Below, piece by piece: positions 3,681-25,593 of a stretch of 26,552 nt of DNA. Source of the DNA: a virus; IMG/VR virus record IMGVR_UViG_3300013372_002806, positions 1 through 26,552 of that record, one strand, 5' to 3'. The stretch's first letter is position 1; the number at the start of each line of letters is the position of its first letter. Made by a program: the position numbers and the translations under genes. Under the pieces are notes generated by a model that was not told where the DNA came from, searched no databases, and saw only the letters and a program-made list of their open reading frames with translations.

Positions 3681-3710
3681 TTGACTTTTTGTAATTTGTT
3701 TGTATAGTTG
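3681..3710 (+). promoter_or_regulatory. Bacteroidetes-type promoter, almost leaderless
   Basis: TTG at 3681-3683, 19 bases, then TATAGTTG at 3703-3710 (one mismatch to TAnnTTTG). Transcription would begin about 4 bases later, at or next to the ATG at 3714, giving little or no 5' leader. Confidence 0.7.
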
Positions 3711-3713
3711 TAT

Positions 3714-4271
3714 ATGAATGAATTACAAAAGAAAAATCAAATTTTAAAGTATCTTAACAAGTATTACTATGTTAAAGATAGTATCTTTTTAAATAGGTAC
3801 CATGACCATGAATATGGTAATGATATTATTCGTGAATTACCTAAAATATTTAGTGTTACTAGAGAATTTTGTACAGAAATATTTAGGTATTGGGCTGAAG
3901 ATTTAGGTGTTGAATATCTAGATACTGACGCTTATGGTTCACATAATTTAAAAACTTATTGGTCTCCAGAGCTTGCTCAAGACGTTACTTCATACGTGAG
4001 TATTGATGCTGAGGCCGAACTAACAAATATGGTAATTGAACAAATTGCTGCTGAAATAGATGCTCAAATTCTATTGGATTTAAAAGGTCAAATCAATACT
4101 AATGAATTAATTAGTGTAATTAAATGTCTTGGTTACCAAAAAAGTCCAACATTTTATGACCCAATGACGTTTTCACCAAGAAATCACTTTACATCAATGA
4201 AAAAACATGAAGTACAATATGAAAGAGAGAATAACCCTCACTGGCAGAATTGGATTCGAGCCAGAAGATAG
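3714..4271 (+). CDS. Unknown protein with a capsid-like helix segment (185 aa)
   Basis: The start at 3714 (MNELQKKNQ) is chosen over a TTG at 3708 that lies in the promoter. The N-terminal 65 residues look helical and may hold a winged or helix-turn-helix fold. Residues about 88-125 contain ELAQD, then DAEAELTNMV and EIDAQIL. This resembles the ELAQDL..DAdAEL..EIMLEINRE stretch of T4 gp23 as I remember it. The C-terminus is basic and aromatic (NPHWQNWIRARR). The length is far too short for a capsid protein. The next gene overlaps its end by 65 bases in another frame. Confidence 0.65.
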   Translation: MNELQKKNQILKYLNKYYYVKDSIFLNRYHDHEYGNDIIRELPKIFSVTREFCTEIFRYWAEDLGVEYLDTDAYGSHNLKTYWSPELAQDVTSYVSIDAEAELTNMVIEQIAAEIDAQILLDLKGQINTNELISVIKCLGYQKSPTFYDPMTFSPRNHFTSMKKHEVQYERENNPHWQNWIRARR

Positions 4272-4743
4272 AACAAACAAACATCTATTCCAATCATCAT
4301 GGAAGAAGATAGCTATGGTTTTTATCGAAGGTGATGTTTGTGAATACTACGCATGGTTTCTACAAAAAAGATATAACATTACACTTAACAAACCAATCAG
4401 AGGTGCTCACGTATCATTCATTAACGATTCCATGAGAGATTTAACGCAAAACAATGATAAACCAGAAGAAGAAATTCTTCAATTATGGGAAGATGTTAAA
4501 GCTAAATGGGATGGTAAAAAAATTGATATTGTATTGGATTTAAACCCTAAGACTAATGATAGAATATGGTGGTTAAATATACCTGAAGAAGAACGAGGGG
4601 GGCTTCAAGCCATTAGAAACGAATTAGGGCTTGATAGACCGTACTTTGGGATGCACATGAGCATTGGAAGGGCTCGTGATGGTGTTATGGAAGAGCATTC
4701 AAAATATCTTCATGAATGTATAAAGAATGGTTTTATTCAATAA
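4207..4743 (+). CDS. 2H phosphoesterase, possible Acb1/57B-type anti-CBASS protein
   Basis: The 178-residue product has two H-x-S motifs, HVS at 68-70 (in RGAHVSFIND) and HMS at 150-152 (in FGMHMSIGRA), the hallmark of 2H phosphoesterases. T4 57B (Acb1) belongs to this superfamily and cleaves cyclic oligonucleotides made by bacterial CBASS defence. Size (about 150-180 residues) and phage setting fit. Other 2H enzymes act on 2',3'-cyclic phosphate ends of cut RNA, which would pair well with the RNA ligase at 1395. It overlaps the previous gene by 65 bases; a start at 4219 is equally possible. Confidence 0.72.
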   Translation: MKYNMKERITLTGRIGFEPEDRTNKHLFQSSWKKIAMVFIEGDVCEYYAWFLQKRYNITLNKPIRGAHVSFINDSMRDLTQNNDKPEEEILQLWEDVKAKWDGKKIDIVLDLNPKTNDRIWWLNIPEEERGGLQAIRNELGLDRPYFGMHMSIGRARDGVMEEHSKYLHECIKNGFIQ

Positions 4744-5458
4744 AAAACCATTCTTTAAAATTTTTAGATTTAATACGTTCAATTACTTTACCATAATTTA
4801 TATTTAATTGAATTGACGCATCTTTACCAGATTTATATTCAGTTCCTTCAATAATACATTTTTTATTTCTTCCACCAGTTCCATTTTTTAACATAGTTTC
4901 TCTAATTTTATTCTTTGTTTCTTCACTGGGACCAATATAATTTGGGTTCCATTTAATACCTTTCCTAATTTCACTCATTTTTATTTTAGATTCTTCAGTA
5001 TGTTCAGAACCTTTTCTATTAGATACGCAACCTTTTCTAGTTTTACTTATTTTAGCTTTTATCTCATCAGACATAATTAAACCTTTATTTGGACCAACAT
5101 TACCTTTTAATTTATCACTAATTTTTTTCTTAGTTTCATCAGAAACTATTCTACCATAATTTGATTCAGCTTTTGGTCTAGAATTATAACCATTATGGTA
5201 TGAATTAAAACTATCTATATAAAATTGTTCTCTTTTTAACAATTCATTTATATCGTCCACTAATTCAATTATTTCAAAAATAAAAAATGATAACCCATGA
5301 ATATTATATGAATTTTGTAATTTTGGTGACCTATGTTTATTTTTAAGTAAAGAATTTTTATGTTCTCTAAATCTTTTATTTATATTAATAGATGAACCAA
5401 TGTAAACTTTATTAGTTCTATTATTTAGTATTTTATAAATACCTTGTTTATTTTCCAT
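4733..5458 (-). CDS. GIY-YIG homing endonuclease with NUMOD3-type repeats
   Basis: The N-terminus shows GIYKI and VYIGSS, the two halves of the GIY-YIG motif, then R29 in the RFREH context and a glutamate further on (KREQFYID). Residues about 100-190 hold repeats of the form S-(D/E)-E-x-K-x-K-(I/M)-(S/R), with S-D-K-L-K-G and S-K-T-R-K-G, typical of NUMOD3 DNA-binding modules. The C-terminus (EGTEYKSGKDASIQLNINYG) looks like a NUMOD1 helix-turn-helix. It runs opposite to its neighbours and its last codons overlap the end of the 2H-phosphoesterase gene, typical of a free-standing mobile endonuclease. It starts inside the end of the small gene at 5448-5609. Confidence 0.9.
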   Translation of the reverse strand: MENKQGIYKILNNRTNKVYIGSSININKRFREHKNSLLKNKHRSPKLQNSYNIHGLSFFIFEIIELVDDINELLKREQFYIDSFNSYHNGYNSRPKAESNYGRIVSDETKKKISDKLKGNVGPNKGLIMSDEIKAKISKTRKGCVSNRKGSEHTEESKIKMSEIRKGIKWNPNYIGPSEETKNKIRETMLKNGTGGRNKKCIIEGTEYKSGKDASIQLNINYGKVIERIKSKNFKEWFFIE

Positions 5459-5843: not shown

Positions 5844-5884
5844 AATGTGAACTATTTATATTTTAGAATGTAATAGTTCACATT
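5844..5884 (+). repeat. 12-bp perfect inverted repeat before the kinase (operator or RNA hairpin)
   Basis: AATGTGAACTAT (5844-5855) and ATAGTTCACATT (5873-5884) are exact reverse complements separated by 17 bases. The half-site centres are 29 bp apart, nearly three helical turns. The right half runs into a CACATTTG element (5879-5886) that could be a weak -7 box for the kinase gene. It could be an operator for autoregulation or a hairpin in the leader RNA. Confidence 0.8.
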
Positions 5885-5894
5885 TGTTTTGTAT

Positions 5895-7502
5895 ATGTCA
5901 TTAAAATCTAAAGTTTCATTAGCGTTTTCAATACTAATTATGTTAGTATATTTCTTCACCCAATCATTATTAGTTTTTGGTATAATACCATATTCACAAG
6001 CCATAGGGTATTTCGGTTATGTTTGTTTCATCGCATTTTTATATCCATTTTATCTTTTTACCAAAGAATTTATTAATAATTCTAATCAAATTAAAAATAA
6101 ATTAAATGAATTTGAAAAGTTTATAGATGAGGCAACCCTAATTTCAAAAGCTGATGCTAATGGTAAAATAACATATGTAAATAAAAAATTTACAGAAGTT
6201 TCTGGTTGGTCCTTAGAAGAAATTATTGGTAAAGACCACAATATTGTTAATTCTAACAAACATCCAAAAGAGTTTTGGCGTAATATGTATAAAACAGTTG
6301 TCAAAGATAAAAAAATATGGAATGAGCTAGTTACCAACAAAGCTAAAGATGGTAGTCTTTATTACGTTGATACCTATATAAAAGCTGAATTTGATAATCA
6401 AACAAATAAATTATTAGGTTTTACTTCAATACGACAAGATTTTACGGAATTAAAACGAAAAGAGAGTGAAATTTCTAATAGAATGAACGCAATTAACAAA
6501 TCTAATGCGGTTATTGAATTTGACTTAGATGGTACCATAAAATTTGCAAATGATTTATTTTTAAAAACATTAGGATATAAGCATCAAGATGAAATAATAG
6601 GAAAACATCATAGTTTGTTTATTGAAGACGAGATAAAAGATACTGATGAATATAAAGATTTTTGGGAAAAATTAAGAAAAGGTAAATTTTTTAGTGGTGA
6701 AATTACCAGAAAGAAAAAAAATGGTGAATTAATTTATCTTCAAGCTACATACAATCCTATTATTGGAAATGATGGTAAATCTTACAGAGTTATGAAAATA
6801 GCTACTGATATTACAGAAAGCTACAATCAACAATTAGAACTGGATAAGAAAAATACATATTTAGAACATGCTGCCAAGATATTAAGACACGATATGCACT
6901 CAGGTATAAATACTTACATGCCAAGAGGTGTTTCATCTTTAGAAAGAAGATTAACTCCAGAAATCATAGAATCGGCAAAATTAGAATCACCATTAAAAAT
7001 GATAAAAGAAGGGTTAAAACATACTCAAAAAGTATATAAAGGTGTTTATGAATTTACCAATTTGGTTAAAACTGATGTTGTTTTAAGTAAAACAGAATGT
7101 AGTATCCAGAAAATAATGGATGATTATTTAAGTGCTACAGCTTATAAATCACAAGTTCATTTAGATGACAATTTACCAACAATCGATGTTAATGAATCTT
7201 TGATGTGTACTTCTATTGATAATTTAATTAGAAATGGTTTAAAATACAACGACAGTAAAAGTAAAATCGTTAAAATTTACAGTGAAGATGGGTTTATTTG
7301 TATTGAAGATAATGGTAGAGGTATTAACCAAAAAGAATTTGACGAACTTTCAAAACCTTACGTTAGAAAAGAAGGTCAACAAGAAACAGGTTCTGGTTTA
7401 GGTCTTAATATATGTAAAGCTATTTTAAAAGAACATGGCTTTGATATTACAGCTGAAAAATTAGAACAAGGTACAAAATTAAGAATAAAAATAAAAAACT
7501 AA
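5895..7502 (+). CDS. Membrane PAS-PAS sensor histidine kinase
   Basis: A 535-residue kinase starting MSLKSKV. Two membrane helices (about 8-30 and 38-56) are followed by two PAS domains (about 77-185, with NGKITYVNKKF and VSGWSLEEIIGKDH; about 198-308, ending IATDITE). The phospho-accepting histidine is H332 in LRHDMHSGIN. The ATP-binding domain shows the N box (N443, N447 in IDNLIRNGLKYND), the G1 box EDNGRGI and the G2 box GSGLGLNICK. All catalytic features are intact. There is no periplasmic sensor loop, so the signal is likely internal or membrane-linked and read by PAS. It heads an operon with a receiver protein. The TTG-TAT codons before this ATG are not needed. Confidence 0.93.
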   Translation: MSLKSKVSLAFSILIMLVYFFTQSLLVFGIIPYSQAIGYFGYVCFIAFLYPFYLFTKEFINNSNQIKNKLNEFEKFIDEATLISKADANGKITYVNKKFTEVSGWSLEEIIGKDHNIVNSNKHPKEFWRNMYKTVVKDKKIWNELVTNKAKDGSLYYVDTYIKAEFDNQTNKLLGFTSIRQDFTELKRKESEISNRMNAINKSNAVIEFDLDGTIKFANDLFLKTLGYKHQDEIIGKHHSLFIEDEIKDTDEYKDFWEKLRKGKFFSGEITRKKKNGELIYLQATYNPIIGNDGKSYRVMKIATDITESYNQQLELDKKNTYLEHAAKILRHDMHSGINTYMPRGVSSLERRLTPEIIESAKLESPLKMIKEGLKHTQKVYKGVYEFTNLVKTDVVLSKTECSIQKIMDDYLSATAYKSQVHLDDNLPTIDVNESLMCTSIDNLIRNGLKYNDSKSKIVKIYSEDGFICIEDNGRGINQKEFDELSKPYVRKEGQQETGSGLGLNICKAILKEHGFDITAEKLEQGTKLRIKIKN

Positions 7503-7512
7503 AAAAAAACAA

Positions 7513-7950
7513 ATGATTAACTCTATTTTATTAGTGGATGATGAAGATTTATTCCACTTAGTATTTGAAGACGCATGCAGTCTTTTAGATATAACGCTTT
7601 CATTAGAAAGTTTAGACAGTGCTGACACAGCTGAAACTATGTTTAAAGAGTGGAACGAAAATGGTGATGACTTAAACAAACCAGAATGTGTGTTTGTTGA
7701 TTTAAATATAATTGGTTCATCTTATGATGGTATTGAATTGATTAGAAAAATAAATTTTGAATATGGTAACAATGTTGTTATTGGTATTATATCATCTAGC
7801 GATGAAGCTAACGAGCAAGCAAAAGCCATTCAAGCTGGTGCCCAGTTTTGGATTATAAAATCTGATGAAATTGAACCTAGACTTGAAGAATTTAGAAAAG
7901 ATTACGAAGGTTATAAAAACAAAACAAACCCATTTAAAATCTATAGATAA
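7513..7950 (+). CDS. Stand-alone response regulator receiver
   Basis: A 145-residue receiver domain with no output domain. The acidic pocket is D9-D10 (LLVDDED), the phospho-acceptor D63 (VFVDLN), the switch serine in IISSS (94-96) and the conserved lysine K116 (IIKSD). It begins 10 bases after the kinase stop and its own stop overlaps the next ATG by one base, so it is the kinase partner. Without a DNA-binding domain it must act by protein contact. The obvious candidates are the coiled-coil protein that follows or a host phosphorelay or sigma/anti-sigma factor. Confidence 0.93.
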   Translation: MINSILLVDDEDLFHLVFEDACSLLDITLSLESLDSADTAETMFKEWNENGDDLNKPECVFVDLNIIGSSYDGIELIRKINFEYGNNVVIGIISSSDEANEQAKAIQAGAQFWIIKSDEIEPRLEEFRKDYEGYKNKTNPFKIYR

Positions 7951-8606
7951 TGATTAAAATAGATAAAAAAACAAAGGAACAATTAATCCAACTTCAAAAA
8001 ACAAAAAAAATTACCTTAGAAGGTAATATTTTAAAAGTTATTGAAGATGATGGTGATATTGAATTCCAAAAATATGTTAATGAATCTATAGAAAAAGATA
8101 ATAATACTAGAAAAAAACGTTTGGAAATAACCAAACAAATACAAAAACAAAACAAAGAATTAACTGATTGGAAAGCTGAAAATGAAAGAATACACATAGA
8201 ACTACTAGAAACATTAGAAGCTAATAAAATAGCCATATTAGAAGCCGAAAATGCAAAAGAAGAAGCTGAGATATCTAAAGACCAAGCTGAGAAATCAATG
8301 ATTGAAGCAATTACAGCTAAAGCCGAAGCTGAAAATGCAAAAATAAATGCTGAAAATGATTTGGAGTTAATCCAAAAGAAATCTCAGTTTGAATTAATTG
8401 GTACAATAGTTAAAGTGGCTCTTTGGGTTATTATGGGTGTTGGTATAACAACTACACTTATGTTTTTAATTGCATTATTTGCTGGTGTTGATACTAGTGT
8501 AATTGGGTCTACATGGAGCAACATAATAGGAATACTTTTAACCAACGCTTTTAGTATTGTTGGTACAATTATGGGTGTTAAATATGCATCTGAAAAGAAT
8601 AGTTGA
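7950..8606 (+). CDS. Coiled-coil protein with C-terminal membrane anchor (218 aa)
   Basis: ATG overlaps the receiver stop (TAATG). Residues about 45-145 form a long charged coiled coil with repeated A-E-x-A-x blocks (EAENAKEEAE, TAKAEAENAK). The last 70 residues hold two membrane helices around VIMGVGITTTLMFLIALF and a second segment ending IMGVKYASEKNS. I know no family for it. Its position as third gene of the kinase operon suggests it is the effector or scaffold of the pathway at the membrane. The two-helix end also recalls holin-like proteins, so a lysis link is possible. Confidence 0.75.
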   Translation: MIKIDKKTKEQLIQLQKTKKITLEGNILKVIEDDGDIEFQKYVNESIEKDNNTRKKRLEITKQIQKQNKELTDWKAENERIHIELLETLEANKIAILEAENAKEEAEISKDQAEKSMIEAITAKAEAENAKINAENDLELIQKKSQFELIGTIVKVALWVIMGVGITTTLMFLIALFAGVDTSVIGSTWSNIIGILLTNAFSIVGTIMGVKYASEKNS

Positions 8607-8607
8607 T

Positions 8608-8640
8608 AAAAAAAGGAGATATTAATATCTCCTTTTTTTT
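8608..8640. terminator. Bidirectional intrinsic terminator
   Basis: GGAGATATTAATATCTCC (8615-8632) is a perfect palindrome flanked by A7 on the left and T8 on the right, so it can end transcripts from both sides. It separates the kinase operon from the convergent gene at 8639-8911. Confidence 0.9.
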
Positions 8641-8911
8641 ATTCTATAATCTCATCATCTTCTTTTTTAGGTGTCTCGTTGGTTGGTTTTTCTTTGCCCC
8701 ATATTTTATCAACACTGGCTAAACCTAAACAACCAAAAGATAACATTGCAACTGCATTAACTAATGTGTCAGCTGGTCTTACGTCATCAGGTGAAAAACT
8801 GTTGGTAAAAAGTGTAATACACAATGTTAAACCAGCAATAATTCCGATAAACCTTTTTGAAGAAAAACTCTTATTCCTGTCTTGGAATATTTCAGTAAAA
8901 AATTTTTTCAT
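8639..8911 (-). CDS. Holin-like two-helix membrane protein (90 aa)
   Basis: It starts MKKFFTEIFQD with a basic amphipathic stretch (RNKSFSSKRF). Two hydrophobic helices follow (about 22-40 and 50-68, with FGCLGLASVDKIW), then an acidic, lysine-rich tail. This is the layout of small holins or holin-like proteins in Bacteroidetes phages. The next minus-strand gene upstream is also a small membrane protein, so the pair may form a lysis module. Holin function is inferred from shape only. Confidence 0.65.
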   Translation of the reverse strand: MKKFFTEIFQDRNKSFSSKRFIGIIAGLTLCITLFTNSFSPDDVRPADTLVNAVAMLSFGCLGLASVDKIWGKEKPTNETPKKEDDEIIE

Positions 8912-8972: not shown

Positions 8973-9236
8973 TTACTTATTTTGTATTAACTCATCAACA
9001 TATTTATCTCTTTGTTCAGTCATGTATTGAGTTCTTTCTATTAATCTTTCTCTTTCATCATTAGTTAATTTTAAAATCAAAGCTTCTTTCTCGTCAATTA
9101 ATTTTTTATATTCTGTTAATTGATTATTAAAAACCATATTTTGATAATATAGTATTGCTACTAAAAGAATGATAGTAAAAGATTGTTCTTTTAATTTACT
9201 AAAAAAAGTATCGGTTATTTCAGTTGATTTTTCCAT
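8973..9236 (-). CDS. Membrane-anchored coiled-coil protein, spanin-like (87 aa)
   Basis: One membrane helix (about 19-33, FTIILLVAILYY) is followed by a charged coiled coil to the end (EYKKLIDEKEALILKL and onwards). Type II topology would place the coiled coil outside the inner membrane, as for Rz-type inner spanins, and the gene lies beside a holin-like gene. No outer spanin lipoprotein was seen next to it. Spanin function is inferred from topology and neighbours. Confidence 0.6.
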   Translation of the reverse strand: MEKSTEITDTFFSKLKEQSFTIILLVAILYYQNMVFNNQLTEYKKLIDEKEALILKLTNDERERLIERTQYMTEQRDKYVDELIQNK

Positions 9237-9317: not shown

Positions 9318-9440
9318 ATGAGCAAACAAATGACACACGAATATCTTGTAGAGAACGGTCTTATCCTATTTGAAACCATTATTGGCTCTCAAGCATATGG
9401 TACGCAGACACCTACAAGCGACATTGACTATTTGTTATAA
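9318..9440 (+). pseudogene. Truncated nucleotidyltransferase (N-terminal 40 residues)
   Basis: The peptide starts MSKQMTHEYLVENG and carries ETIIGSQAYGT followed by PTSDIDY, the GS...DxD signature of the Pol-beta-like nucleotidyltransferase fold (COG3541-type). Right after DIDY come two leucines and a stop, whereas the family continues for 200 residues or more. No further part of the gene is seen downstream. The break coincides with the end of the minus-strand endonuclease region, whose stop codon (9428-9430) overlaps the DIDY codons. A homing event has most likely replaced the rest. The remaining peptide cannot fold as a catalytic domain. Confidence 0.75.
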
Positions 9441-9631: not shown

Positions 9632-9958
9632 TTATTTATAAAGAGAATTATTTTCAAGTAGGAATTTGATATTCTCATCAGCTTCTTTACAATCATCGAT
9701 AAATGAAAATACTTGTTCATCGGTTAAGATACGCCATTCATTTTTAGCTTCAGTAGTTTGATTTGAATATTTCCTATGCAACCATTGCTCAACCTTAAGA
9801 TAGTTTTTTGAATAGTATCGTTTAAGAAGACTTATATTATTAGGGTTACCTGTTTGCAATTGCTTAATACGTAGATTAGGCTCATTTTTACTAATACCAA
9901 TCTTATGGCTCTCGTGGCCATCAATATCGGTTTGTAGTAATAAGTAAACGTATCCCAT
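9632..9958 (-). CDS. GIY-YIG-type nuclease domain (Mug113/T5orf172-like), possibly truncated
   Basis: The 108-residue product begins MGYVYLLL and has HKIGIS, NLRIKQLQTGNP and EQWLHRKYS, the arrangement seen in Mug113/T5orf172 members of the GIY-YIG superfamily (Y-V-Y, K-I-G, R..Q, E..LH). It lies against the flow of genes at a site where a nucleotidyltransferase gene is broken, as expected for a homing endonuclease. A stop separates it from an in-frame DNA-binding tail, so it may be decaying. Confidence 0.75.
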   Translation of the reverse strand: MGYVYLLLQTDIDGHESHKIGISKNEPNLRIKQLQTGNPNNISLLKRYYSKNYLKVEQWLHRKYSNQTTEAKNEWRILTDEQVFSFIDDCKEADENIKFLLENNSLYK

Positions 9959-13181: not shown

Positions 13182-13430
13182 ATGAATTTAAATAAAGAAC
13201 AAATTTTATCTATTATTAGATACACATTAACAACAATAGGTGCAACATTAGTTACAAAAGGAACTATAGATGCTGAAATGATATTACAATTAAGTGGTTC
13301 TATTATGGCATTAGTGTCTGGAATATGGTCAATTATTGATAAAACTGATACTAATATGGCAATTAAAGTTGCTAACTATCAAGCTAAATTAGCTGAAGTA
13401 GCGGCATTAGAAGATGAAAAAGTTAATTAA
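13182..13430 (+). CDS. Holin-like protein (Pam3-gp28-type shape, 82 aa)
   Basis: MNLNKEQILSIIRYTLTTIG leads into two membrane helices (about 8-28 and 34-52, with GSIMALVSGIWSIIDKT) separated by a short turn (KGTIDAE), then an amphipathic helix. The pattern of a helix, K-G-x-I-D, a second helix and a W-S-x-x-D-K turn resembles the Pam3-gp28 family of putative phage holins. It would form pores in the inner membrane at lysis. It is a single gene behind an ATATTTATTA motif. Confidence 0.7.
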   Translation: MNLNKEQILSIIRYTLTTIGATLVTKGTIDAEMILQLSGSIMALVSGIWSIIDKTDTNMAIKVANYQAKLAEVAALEDEKVN

Positions 13431-22956: not shown

Positions 22957-23586
22957 ATGAGATTAAATTTAGATTTAACACAAGGGAAAAAAGCGATTAA
23001 TGTGTTTTTTACGTCTGATTTTCACCTATTCCATAACAATGTATTAAAGTATGATAATCGTCCATTTAATGACGTGCATGAGATGCATTTGACCATTGAG
23101 GAAAGATGGAATGAAACAGTTGGTAGAGATGATGTAGTAATATATTTGGGTGACTTAACTTTTGCTAGAAGAGAAGACAGACAATATGTTGAAAAAATGT
23201 TATTAGGATTGAATGGAAAGATTCATTTTGTTATGGGTAACCATGATAAGTATGATGAAATTATTAAGATGCCTAAGTTTGAAAGTGTACAAGATTATTT
23301 GGAATTGAGATTAACTCATTATGATGATACAAATACCAAAGTGGAAACGCTTTTCTGTTTGATGCATTATCCACTTTATTCTTGGAATAAAAAACATCAT
23401 GGAAGTTATATGATTCACGGTCATTCTCATGGTAATTTATATCATGGTGAAAACGCTGATTTCTATACTAAAAAAAGAGTTATCGATGTGGGTTGTATGT
23501 TAAATGATTATAGACCGATAAGCTATAATGAAGTAATTGAGAAATTAAAGGACATTGATTATAAAGCATTTACTACTCACCCTTAA
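22957..23586 (+). CDS. Calcineurin-like metallophosphoesterase (209 aa)
   Basis: All metal-binding blocks are present in order: SDFHLFH (D-x-H), YLGDLTF (G-D), MGNHDKYD (G-N-H-D), LMHYPLYS and MIHGHSHG (G-H-x-H). The spacing and small size match phage and bacterial single-domain phosphoesterases of the YfcE/MJ0936 type. Substrate unknown; possible targets are cyclic nucleotides, RNA 5' ends, or nucleotides made by host defence systems. It is followed by an AAA+ ATPase. Confidence 0.93.
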   Translation: MRLNLDLTQGKKAINVFFTSDFHLFHNNVLKYDNRPFNDVHEMHLTIEERWNETVGRDDVVIYLGDLTFARREDRQYVEKMLLGLNGKIHFVMGNHDKYDEIIKMPKFESVQDYLELRLTHYDDTNTKVETLFCLMHYPLYSWNKKHHGSYMIHGHSHGNLYHGENADFYTKKRVIDVGCMLNDYRPISYNEVIEKLKDIDYKAFTTHP

Positions 23587-23630: not shown

Positions 23631-24926
23631 ATGGCAAAAAACAACATAAACGGTAGAAGCATTAGAATAGGTAAAACAGGTAATGGTTTTTTAGAAATTC
23701 CATCAATACGATTTGAAGATTTAAACCTTGATGACGATGATGATGACGATTTATTGGATGAAGAAGAATATTTATCAAATTCGGTAACTGAAGATATTAG
23801 TTTCGTTGAATTAGCAATAATTAATGGTTTTTTATATGATGTTTACAGAGGTAAACATGAAGGTATTAGTGTAAGTTCTTATGGCGGTGTTGATAATTTA
23901 GGTAGAGTATCTTTTGGTGGGACTTATGATAATAGAAGTTCATTTTGGTATAATGTTAAATTTGCTGCTGATGAAAATGATTATGTATTTCAAACAATTA
24001 TGTTCATTGATGGTCGTGGTGAATTGAATACTCAATTACATATTTCATCAAAGAAAGGTATAAATGGTGATACTTTTGATATTTTATTTAAAACGATGAA
24101 AAATTTATCGTTTAATAATTCTGAATACAAAGGTAAATGTATCAAGGTTAAAATGAGAGAAGGTTCTTTCAGAGGTATTGAAATTATCAATATGGAAGAA
24201 TCTAAAAATGAACTTATCCTTAACGAAACTCAACACAGATTTATTGACCAATTCGTTAGAATCGTTGGTAGAGGTGGACACATGAGATATCTATTAAATG
24301 GTGAACCTGGAACTGGTAAAACAGAATCAATCCGTGATATCGCCAGAAGACTTTTACCTGATGTAACATTCGTCATTCCAGAGTTTAGAACTACTGATGA
24401 TTTAACTAGTATCATGGAAGCATGTGAAATTTTTGAGAATGGTGTTATCATTATGGATGATATTGATTTGTTCTTAGGTAATCGTGAGCATGGTCATTAC
24501 ACAAGTTTATTAGGTCAATTCTTAGGATTCTTTGATGGTGTTAAGAAAAGAAAAATCAGTTTATTAGCTTCAACTAATGATAAAGGTCTTGTTGATAAGG
24601 CTGCTGAAAGACCAGGTCGCTTCAATTTCACATTGGATTATAGCTTTTTAAACGATGAACAAATCGTTAAGGTATGTAATATCCACTTGGATGAAAAATG
24701 GAGAATCCAAGAAGTGTATGATACGCTAACAGGTAGTGTTGCTGGTAAAAAAGCTAAAGTAACTGGTGCATTTATTGCTAACTTAGCAGAAAATCTAAGA
24801 GAAATGTCAGAAGGTGATGAAGAATGGGCAGTAGCTGATACTGTGAAGCTAATAGAAGAGTCTTATAAAGGATTTTACTCTAGTCAAGTAGAAAAAGAAA
24901 AGAGTACATTAGGTTTTACTAAATAA
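23631..24926 (+). CDS. AAA+ ATPase with N-terminal substrate domain (431 aa)
   Basis: Walker A GEPGTGKT (about 224-231), Walker B VIIMDDIDLF (about 268-277), sensor-1 LLASTND and the arginine-finger region ERPGRFN are intact, the pattern of AAA proteins of the FtsH/proteasome/BCS1 group. The first 200 residues carry an acidic stretch (DDDDDDLLDEEEY) and a beta-rich domain (SSYGGVDNLGRVSFGG). A short helical lid ends the chain. There is no protease motif or membrane helix, so it likely remodels a protein or DNA complex. The phage target is unknown. Confidence 0.92.
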   Translation: MAKNNINGRSIRIGKTGNGFLEIPSIRFEDLNLDDDDDDDLLDEEEYLSNSVTEDISFVELAIINGFLYDVYRGKHEGISVSSYGGVDNLGRVSFGGTYDNRSSFWYNVKFAADENDYVFQTIMFIDGRGELNTQLHISSKKGINGDTFDILFKTMKNLSFNNSEYKGKCIKVKMREGSFRGIEIINMEESKNELILNETQHRFIDQFVRIVGRGGHMRYLLNGEPGTGKTESIRDIARRLLPDVTFVIPEFRTTDDLTSIMEACEIFENGVIIMDDIDLFLGNREHGHYTSLLGQFLGFFDGVKKRKISLLASTNDKGLVDKAAERPGRFNFTLDYSFLNDEQIVKVCNIHLDEKWRIQEVYDTLTGSVAGKKAKVTGAFIANLAENLREMSEGDEEWAVADTVKLIEESYKGFYSSQVEKEKSTLGFTK

Positions 24927-25230: not shown

Positions 25231-25593
25231 ATGCATTATTTTATGAATGCGTCAATCAAAAGTATTGGCGAAACACAAACATTTGGAGAAACTTTCCAAA
25301 AAAGAGAATTTATAGTGGAGACAGATGAACAATATCCAGAAACACTTAAATTAGAATTTATTAACGACCAAGTAGATGCTTTGGATACGTTTATTGAAGG
25401 TGAAATGGTTACCGTAGCTTTTGTTCCTAAAGGGAATGAGTATCAAGGCAAACACTATGTTCAGTTAAGAGCAATTGCAATCAGTGGAGTGGCTGATAGT
25501 TTTGTAGAAAAAGAAAACAAAAAAGCAAAAACACTCAATAAAGCTACTCAGAAATTAGTTGATGAGTTGCGAAATACAAATACACTAGCATAA
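25231..25593 (+). CDS. DUF3127-like OB-fold protein (120 aa)
   Basis: The central part reads QKREFIVETDEQYPETLKL, LDTFIEGEMVTVAF and YQGKHYVQLRAIAI, which fits the DUF3127 pattern (F-(I/V)-V-x-T-x-(E/D)-Q-Y-P, G-x-x-V-x-V, G-(K/R)-x-Y). That family has an OB fold and is thought to bind single-stranded DNA in Bacteroidetes and their phages. The basic tail (KENKKAKTLNKATQKL) may aid DNA binding. A start at 25243 (MNASIKSIG) is also possible. The next ATG follows the stop directly. Confidence 0.78.
   Translation: MHYFMNASIKSIGETQTFGETFQKREFIVETDEQYPETLKLEFINDQVDALDTFIEGEMVTVAFVPKGNEYQGKHYVQLRAIAISGVADSFVEKENKKAKTLNKATQKLVDELRNTNTLA

Follow-up and report, generated by a model that had tools for sequence, protein, structure and literature searches.

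A kinase, receiver and membrane protein set conserved in uncultivated phages, with a possible role in lysis timing

We describe a three-gene set in a viral genome fragment of 26,552 bases (IMG/VR virus record IMGVR_UViG_3300013372_002806; the whole fragment is called the window here) that encodes a membrane histidine kinase (HK), a single-domain receiver (RR) and a coiled-coil membrane protein (CC). Very probably these genes form a genuine phage two-component system that is conserved and has its output at the membrane. The gene order recurs in 118 distinct viral loci, which argues that the set is not a product of chance, and endolysin-type genes lie beside many of them; we judge it moderately probable that the set regulates lysis through the holin/endolysin system. 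In the window, the set and its borders comprise the following features.

5844..5884, + strand: inverted repeat, hairpin- or terminator-like (arms 5844-5856 and 5872-5884, 13 bp, loop of 15, then a T-rich run)
5889..7502, + strand: HK, membrane histidine kinase with two transmembrane (TM) segments, PAS1, PAS2 and HATPase_c (Pfam, conservation)
about 6138-6458, + strand: PAS1 of HK
about 6507-6818, + strand: PAS2 of HK
6888-6890, + strand: codon of phospho-His334 of HK (read from the sequence)
7513..7950, + strand: RR, single-domain receiver (Pfam), with phospho-Asp63 at 7699-7701 and Lys116 at 7858-7860
7950..8606, + strand: CC, with an N-domain (residues 1-72), a variable coiled coil and a membrane hairpin (TM1, residues 149-178, at 8394-8483; TM2, residues 183-214, at 8496-8591)
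8608..8639, + strand: intrinsic terminator-like hairpin of 14 pairs, between CC and a convergent holin-like gene

Both signalling partners carry by sequence the features of two-component proteins: H, N, G1 and G2 boxes in the kinase, and an acidic pair, Asp, Ser/Thr and Lys in the receiver. The two PAS domains and HATPase_c of HK exceed their Pfam cut-offs, hydropathy places TM segments at residues 5-23 and 39-57, and the motifs are RHDMHSGIN (containing His334), DNLIRNGLKYN, DNGRGI and GSGLGLN, the last three of which we take to be the N, G1 and G2 boxes; the start codon is TTG, with an ATG at 5895 also possible. Of 125 kinases matching RHD (five truncated ends excluded), 124 have the H-box RHDMHSGIN. 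RR scores 35.9 bits against Response_reg (cut-off 30.2) and has no output domain in Pfam, while D9, D10, D63, S95 and K116, presumably the acidic pocket (D9 and D10), the phospho-site, the Ser/Thr and the Lys, are invariant in all 111 distinct aligned sequences. Its profile finds as best PDB match a designed barrel, with three weak repeats, and next the two-component response regulator 3ILH. A gap of 10 nt separates HK from RR, whose stop codon shares bases with the start of CC (TAATG). An original prediction made from this DNA alone had named a membrane PAS-PAS kinase with all four boxes, a stand-alone receiver with a full acidic pocket and a coupled coiled-coil membrane protein; each of these identifications stands, the last also in an AlphaFold2 model of a helix and hairpin, and with them the presence of a complete kinase-receiver pair on a phage.

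The set is widespread. In IMG/VR, scans at an expectation value (E) of 1e-3 matched HK at least 579 times, RR at least 580 times and CC 476 times, the HK and RR counts possibly including other kinases and receivers. From the best 80 of each list we examined 227 loci including the window, of which 223 have a complete RR and 118 are distinct by RR and CC sequence. Gene patterns across the 227 are HK RR CC (179), HK HK RR CC (35), RR CC (9), CC (3) and HK RR (1), some of the short ones being contig ends. In the 118 distinct loci, chosen for a complete RR, CC follows RR without exception (at a distance of -4 in 55 and -1 in 48) and HK lies upstream in 112, with two kinases in 18 and none in 6. The synteny check that had been proposed thus finds a fixed HK-RR-CC order, and the accompanying claim that full kinase-receiver pairs are very rare in phages falls with the number of loci.

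The three proteins appear to have diverged together. Over 106 loci, RR is the best conserved of them, with a mean pairwise identity of 83%, ahead of the HK core at 69% and CC at 58%. Their distance matrices are correlated as well: Mantel r is 0.42 for HK-RR, 0.50 for RR-CC and 0.28 for HK-CC, and each value exceeds all 999 permutations. From the gene coupling and this correlated divergence we infer phosphotransfer from HK to RR. Tandem kinases (18 loci) are 49-68% identical in their cores, and among nine kinases picked for differing length, six combine GAF with one or two PAS domains, while in three (L222, L173 and the second of the L051 kinases) no sensor domain is recognised, from which it follows that the input varies while receiver and output stay constant. 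In several loci (L051:9635-13568, L014, L031, L065, L078, L143 and L170) a third gene, signal-peptide-like and coiled-coil (neighbour cluster 16), stands between tandem kinases upstream of RR and CC; cluster 16 occurs in 15 of the 118 loci and may provide an additional input from the periplasm.

Chance acquisition of an ordinary host two-component operon, as cargo without a phage role, is a disfavoured and very improbable origin. The PAS, receiver and kinase domains do have bacterial relatives; the order and residues are nevertheless conserved across the 118 viral loci, and an alignment of CC, the one protein of the set scanned (two peptide patterns) against 84,980 cellular species genomes, found a single locus, L228. 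There HK, RR and CC share a contig with otherwise phage-like genes (PhoH-, terminase- and portal-like, named by eye), so the chromosomal host operon that had been named as a refutation was not found within that scan. Among 50,697 phage records, CC finds nothing at E 1 and RR nothing better than E 0.4; INPHARED matches to HK span at most 44% of it, in the PAS or ATPase parts. Since CC is absent from those phage records and its only cellular locus is phage-like, the set appears to belong to uncultivated phages. Their hosts are probably Bacteroidota, because Por_Secre_tail (PF18962), which we take to be a type IX secretion signal, occurs on two neighbours in phages with the same endolysin, and the window encodes a DUF3127 protein. 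The PF18962 carriers belong to a group of large proteins that adjoin the endolysin in such phages lacking the set (L249:3360-5267 (-), L262:6926-7975 and L276:6879-8801): the tail is on the L249 and L262 proteins (the scan covered these two), the former with a cohesin domain as well, and they are apparently sorted by the host secretion system.

CC, the third gene, is the probable output of the kinase-receiver pair. The window protein matches no Pfam or PHROG family at E 0.01. Its AlphaFold2 model (218 residues; predicted local distance difference test (pLDDT) 87.5, predicted template modelling score (pTM) 0.36) has a small N-domain, a 142-residue helix (37-178) that runs into TM1, a turn and a second helix (183-216). 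Conservation is concentrated at the N terminus, where 13 of 72 positions reach at least 97% conservation; in the coil 0 of 62 do. A PDB structure search gives long-helix matches only (FadA and others, Z at most 8.2), and a viral structure library yields one clear relative, A0A6J5PRT3, an uncharacterised protein of an uncultured phage (E 1.1e-14). Across the family, 42 of 88 CC members match phrog_1544 (best 1.3e-5), a family without assigned function. No named holin family is among the 25 of 117 PHROG families listed for CC, nor the RI family among the first 25 of 138 Pfam families listed, no direct comparison with RI or RIII having been made. A polar face of TM2 was considered as evidence for a pore and set aside (moment 0.41, not telling).

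A one-gene version of the system points to the hairpin as its working end. Adjoining the endolysin of L290 is a 372-residue protein in which two PAS domains are followed by a helix and by the membrane hairpin of CC, and which lacks kinase and receiver parts; L279, on the same contig as L312, carries a relative. The fusion's hairpin is 58% identical to that of CC over 89 columns, and its first PAS is 49-54% identical to the kinase PAS in 10 of 32 module records; for the window proteins the match is 36% in PAS and 61% in the hairpin. In the predicted structure, two PAS domains lead into an 82-residue helix and the hairpin (pLDDT 76, lower in the coil). Searched against IMG/VR, the fusion gives 270 matches, some perhaps through PAS alone, and the best 80 of these 270, nearly full-length, provide 59 distinct loci, none of which has RR or a kinase core in its flanks; likewise an RR query finds 0 of 16 fusion records and 37 of 38 module records. 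The best INPHARED match is a PAS-PAS chemoreceptor-like protein (by eye) in an unverified faecal record. Because the fusion replaces HK, RR and the CC N-domain, the hairpin would be the output and PAS the input; the fusion, taken with the conservation of the CC N-domain, makes this domain the likely dock of the receiver.

Both versions often keep company with endolysins. Neighbour clusters, classed from their representatives, include an endolysin-like cluster in 64 of the 118 loci, with 37 of 68 copies at gene offset +2 or -2 from RR. Three endolysin-type families occur among the representatives, GH19/phrog_181, Phage_lysozyme (GH24) and phrog_3000/33083; phrog_3000, of unknown function in PHROGs, is counted as a lysin because the scanned member also matches the endolysin family phrog_33083 (2.7e-9). 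In 51 of 118 loci the set has an endolysin-type gene as an immediate neighbour (on both sides in 14): such a gene comes directly after CC in 28, always on the same strand and in 18 at 10-14 nt, and directly before the first HK in 37 (28 divergent, 9 on the same strand). Since the loci are short, whole records were tested with the family models themselves, using 38 long records (103-322 kb) hand-picked from the loci; at least one other above 100 kb, that of L040, lies outside this selection. Near-duplicates (G015, G017, G027, G028 and G035, judged by positions and scores rather than by alignment) were dropped. In the 29 dereplicated records with RR and a strong endolysin match, 20 have the two within 6 kb, against 3.5 expected at random placement. 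The control, GH19 matches weaker than 1e-40 (frames of 278-1023 residues, some of which may be endolysins), gives 1 of 12 within 6 kb against 0.9 expected. For the fusion, an endolysin lies within two genes in 42 of the 59 loci, and in 8 of 9 dereplicated records with a GH19 or phrog_3000 match (near-duplicates G042 and G043 dropped) the distance is within 6 kb, against 1.2 expected; 5 of the 16 fusion records have no match in a search for these two families (PF00959 lay outside it). Starting from the endolysin, 79 newly fetched loci contain HK, RR and CC in 17, RR and CC in 3, CC in 1 and the PAS-hairpin fusion in 2.

Several observations count against a lysis role, or against so tidy a system. 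Three queries at 1e-3 find no endolysin in the window, and G001, the long record most closely related to it, has its nearest one about 40 kb away from the set. Among the long records, the endolysin is more than 6 kb away in 9 of 29, and a strong match is absent in 3 of 38; 56 of the 79 same-endolysin loci lack the set in their flanks. The locus counts are not independent, because they come from the top 80 of each list and are mutually related. A gene interrupts HK and RR in five loci (L120, L134, L149, L162 and L191), L172 and L177 have RR and CC without an adjacent kinase, and L178 and L206 have CC with neither neighbour. No matching kinase core was found in the records of these last four loci, nor RR in that of L206. 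These systems may be pared down, or may depend on a kinase of the host. CC lacks convincing holin homology (Phage_holin_9 is matched weakly by 9 of 88 members, best E 0.005), and a proposed homology between its hairpin and the small membrane proteins next to it (clusters 6, 25 and 32) was rejected at hhalign probabilities below 2%. The original suggestion that the set acts perhaps to time lysis gains independent support from the endolysin neighbourhoods and the fusion.

Shared timing could produce such neighbourhoods by another route. The set would then be a late membrane signalling unit with a different job, such as host energy metabolism or envelope upkeep, or superinfection exclusion, and endolysins would lie nearby as fellow late genes of a permissive region. 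The motif TATAAATA, which we take to be a T4-type late promoter, occurs in 23.5% of 102 regions upstream of HK against 4.2% in shuffles (the sequences are related), an enrichment by which co-location could reflect timing; the distant endolysins and the many endolysin loci without the set agree with this. Random placement nevertheless predicts far less association than is seen, three endolysin-type families flank the set on both sides and in both orientations, and the fusion shows the same association. TATAAATA is found in 0 of 59 regions upstream of the fusion gene, and no forward copy lies in the 100 bases upstream of the window's HK. On balance we regard a non-lysis unit as improbable.

If the set does regulate lysis, CC could act on a holin or be one. 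In the latter case the hairpin of CC, and of the PAS fusion, would itself form the lesion, gated directly by phosphorylated RR or by PAS. The endolysin-type genes placed directly after CC would suit such a role, as would the hairpin being the part common to the relay and fusion versions and the weak Phage_holin_9 matches; yet the long coil, and the want of an endolysin adjoining CC in the window, do not, and a long cytoplasmic coil with an N-domain is unlike small holins. A separate holin is suggested by the small membrane proteins: 7 of 7 fusion-type records contain cluster 6, and a gene of cluster 6, 25 or 32 comes next after CC in 25 of 118 loci (cluster 6 in 10). Cluster 6 is, on the other hand, detected in 11 of 31 RR-CC-bearing records and undetected in 20. 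The cluster 6 protein of the window reaches only E 0.07 with the holin family phrog_9987, which 1 of 40 members matches, another matching a second holin family at 0.017, and we treat the gene adjoining CC as a putative, weakly supported holin-like gene. A CC that is itself the holin seems rather unlikely to us.

We return to CC as a regulator of lysis, and infer phosphotransfer, RR-CC docking, the signal and the action on lysis in the following form. The cytoplasmic PAS domains (and GAF in some relatives) of the membrane-anchored kinase would read a cell-state signal. PAS1 has as its nearest PDB chains 3EWK, Aer (8DIK) and 2GJ3; we take 3EWK to be MmoS and 2GJ3 NifL, and these sensors to bind flavin adenine dinucleotide (FAD). 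The Trp and Asn of the matched motif, which presumably matter for FAD, are kept by PAS1 in at least 97% of 71 kinases (those above 650 bits); in PAS2 and the fusion PAS, judged by eye, Phe or Tyr takes the place of the Trp. PAS1 could thus plausibly sense redox or energy state through bound FAD. HK would phosphorylate RR, which would dock on the N-domain or coil of CC and alter the state of its membrane hairpin; this state would set when the holin/endolysin system opens, CC being most likely a holin regulator. The output of a phage-owned two-component system would on this model be a lysis-region membrane protein and not a transcription factor. More tentatively, and with some reserve, we propose for large Bacteroidota phages a new class of lysis control by sensing, in which one conserved hairpin is driven either by an HK-RR-CC phosphorelay or by cis-fused PAS, the virus reads energy or redox state, phosphorylation sets the lysis clock and a holin-like protein is the direct output of a response regulator.

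The surroundings of the set in the window include two small genes downstream of CC.

8639..8911, - strand: cluster 6 small membrane protein, putative holin, convergent to CC (weak phrog_9987 match)
8973..9236, - strand: small protein outside all Pfam and PHROG families scanned, with one hydrophobic segment at the N terminus and a charged coil; by shape alone we would call it spanin-like

A second holin-like candidate lies at 13182-13430, a small protein with two hydrophobic stretches (by eye) that matches phrog_37382 (E 4.5e-8), a family without assigned function. The 13-bp arm of the repeat upstream of HK is equalled in none of 20 mononucleotide shuffles, and its stem is kept with compensatory changes in the near relatives L002 and L165; a hairpin or terminator seems a likelier reading of the repeat than an operator. 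It had been predicted with a 12-bp arm, so its presence is upheld and its length corrected, and the predicted terminator after the genes is matched by the hairpin at 8608-8639. As a family-wide operator it was rejected, an arm of at least 9 occurring in only 31 of 102 upstream regions, many of them A+T-rich. T4-like genes on the fragment (Pfam and PHROG scans) comprise an RNA ligase, a DNA ligase end and a piece of the Gp23 capsid protein; the last is a 187-residue open reading frame (3708-4271) whose middle matches 49 positions of the T4 major capsid protein and is apparently a fragment. Near it is a GIY-YIG/NUMOD3 homing endonuclease gene (4733-5458 (-)). GIY-YIG-like genes (cluster 18, by eye) are also what separates HK from RR in L120, L149 and L191, which suggests that the operon is a landing place for homing endonucleases. 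A frame at 9318-9440, presumably the start of a nucleotidyltransferase-like gene, stops after about 40 codons near a T5orf172/MUG113 gene (9632-9958 (-)) and looks cut short. Further downstream are a Gene product 88 family member (PF17338, 18413-19657), a phosphoesterase (22957-23586), an AAA ATPase (23631-24926) and the DUF3127 protein (25231-25593).

To our knowledge, the decision when to lyse is understood in detail for few cultured phage models. If our reading is right, signal-dependent lysis would be common among many uncultivated phages, in phosphorelay and one-protein forms, and the membrane would be the target of a two-component output; the signal that phages read ahead of lysis could then be tested directly with synthetic genes in laboratory strains. 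Among the open-licence PubMed Central papers listed, we recognised by title and abstract opening no phage kinase-receiver pair linked to lysis, and passages of PMC13282480, PMC10468136 and PMC9636201 contain no match to the HK-RR-CC system.

Among known systems, T4 lysis inhibition, with holin T and antiholins RI and RIII (PMC11413866, PMC8385771), resembles our proposal in that a sensed condition is passed to the membrane holin system and shifts lysis time. There a periplasmic protein is believed to sense superinfecting DNA, whereas here PAS or GAF sensing would act with or without a phosphorelay; the likeness drawn is one of function. Phage phiCDHM1 shares a phage-borne histidine kinase, agrC, and differs in its quorum-sensing context and in a response regulator reported to be absent from the phage genome (PMC3901668). 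The cREC receivers of jumbo phages share the receiver fold on large phages; they are described as never found in histidine-kinase systems and as proposed nucleotide-processing enzymes (PMC7824862), while RR is coupled to a kinase. The FAD-PAS sensors MmoS, Aer and NifL are closest to PAS1 by sequence, with Trp and Asn kept, and differ from PAS2 and the fusion PAS in the residue at the Trp position; FAD in PAS1 is a prediction. Bacterial two-component systems that pair a HisKA-like kinase with a single-domain receiver have the same H, N, G1 and G2 boxes and the same receiver Asp/Asp/Ser/Lys. Unlike them, the present system is phage-borne, couples a receiver without DNA-binding output to a membrane hairpin protein, keeps a near-invariant H-box and, in many relatives, lies in a neighbourhood of lysis genes.

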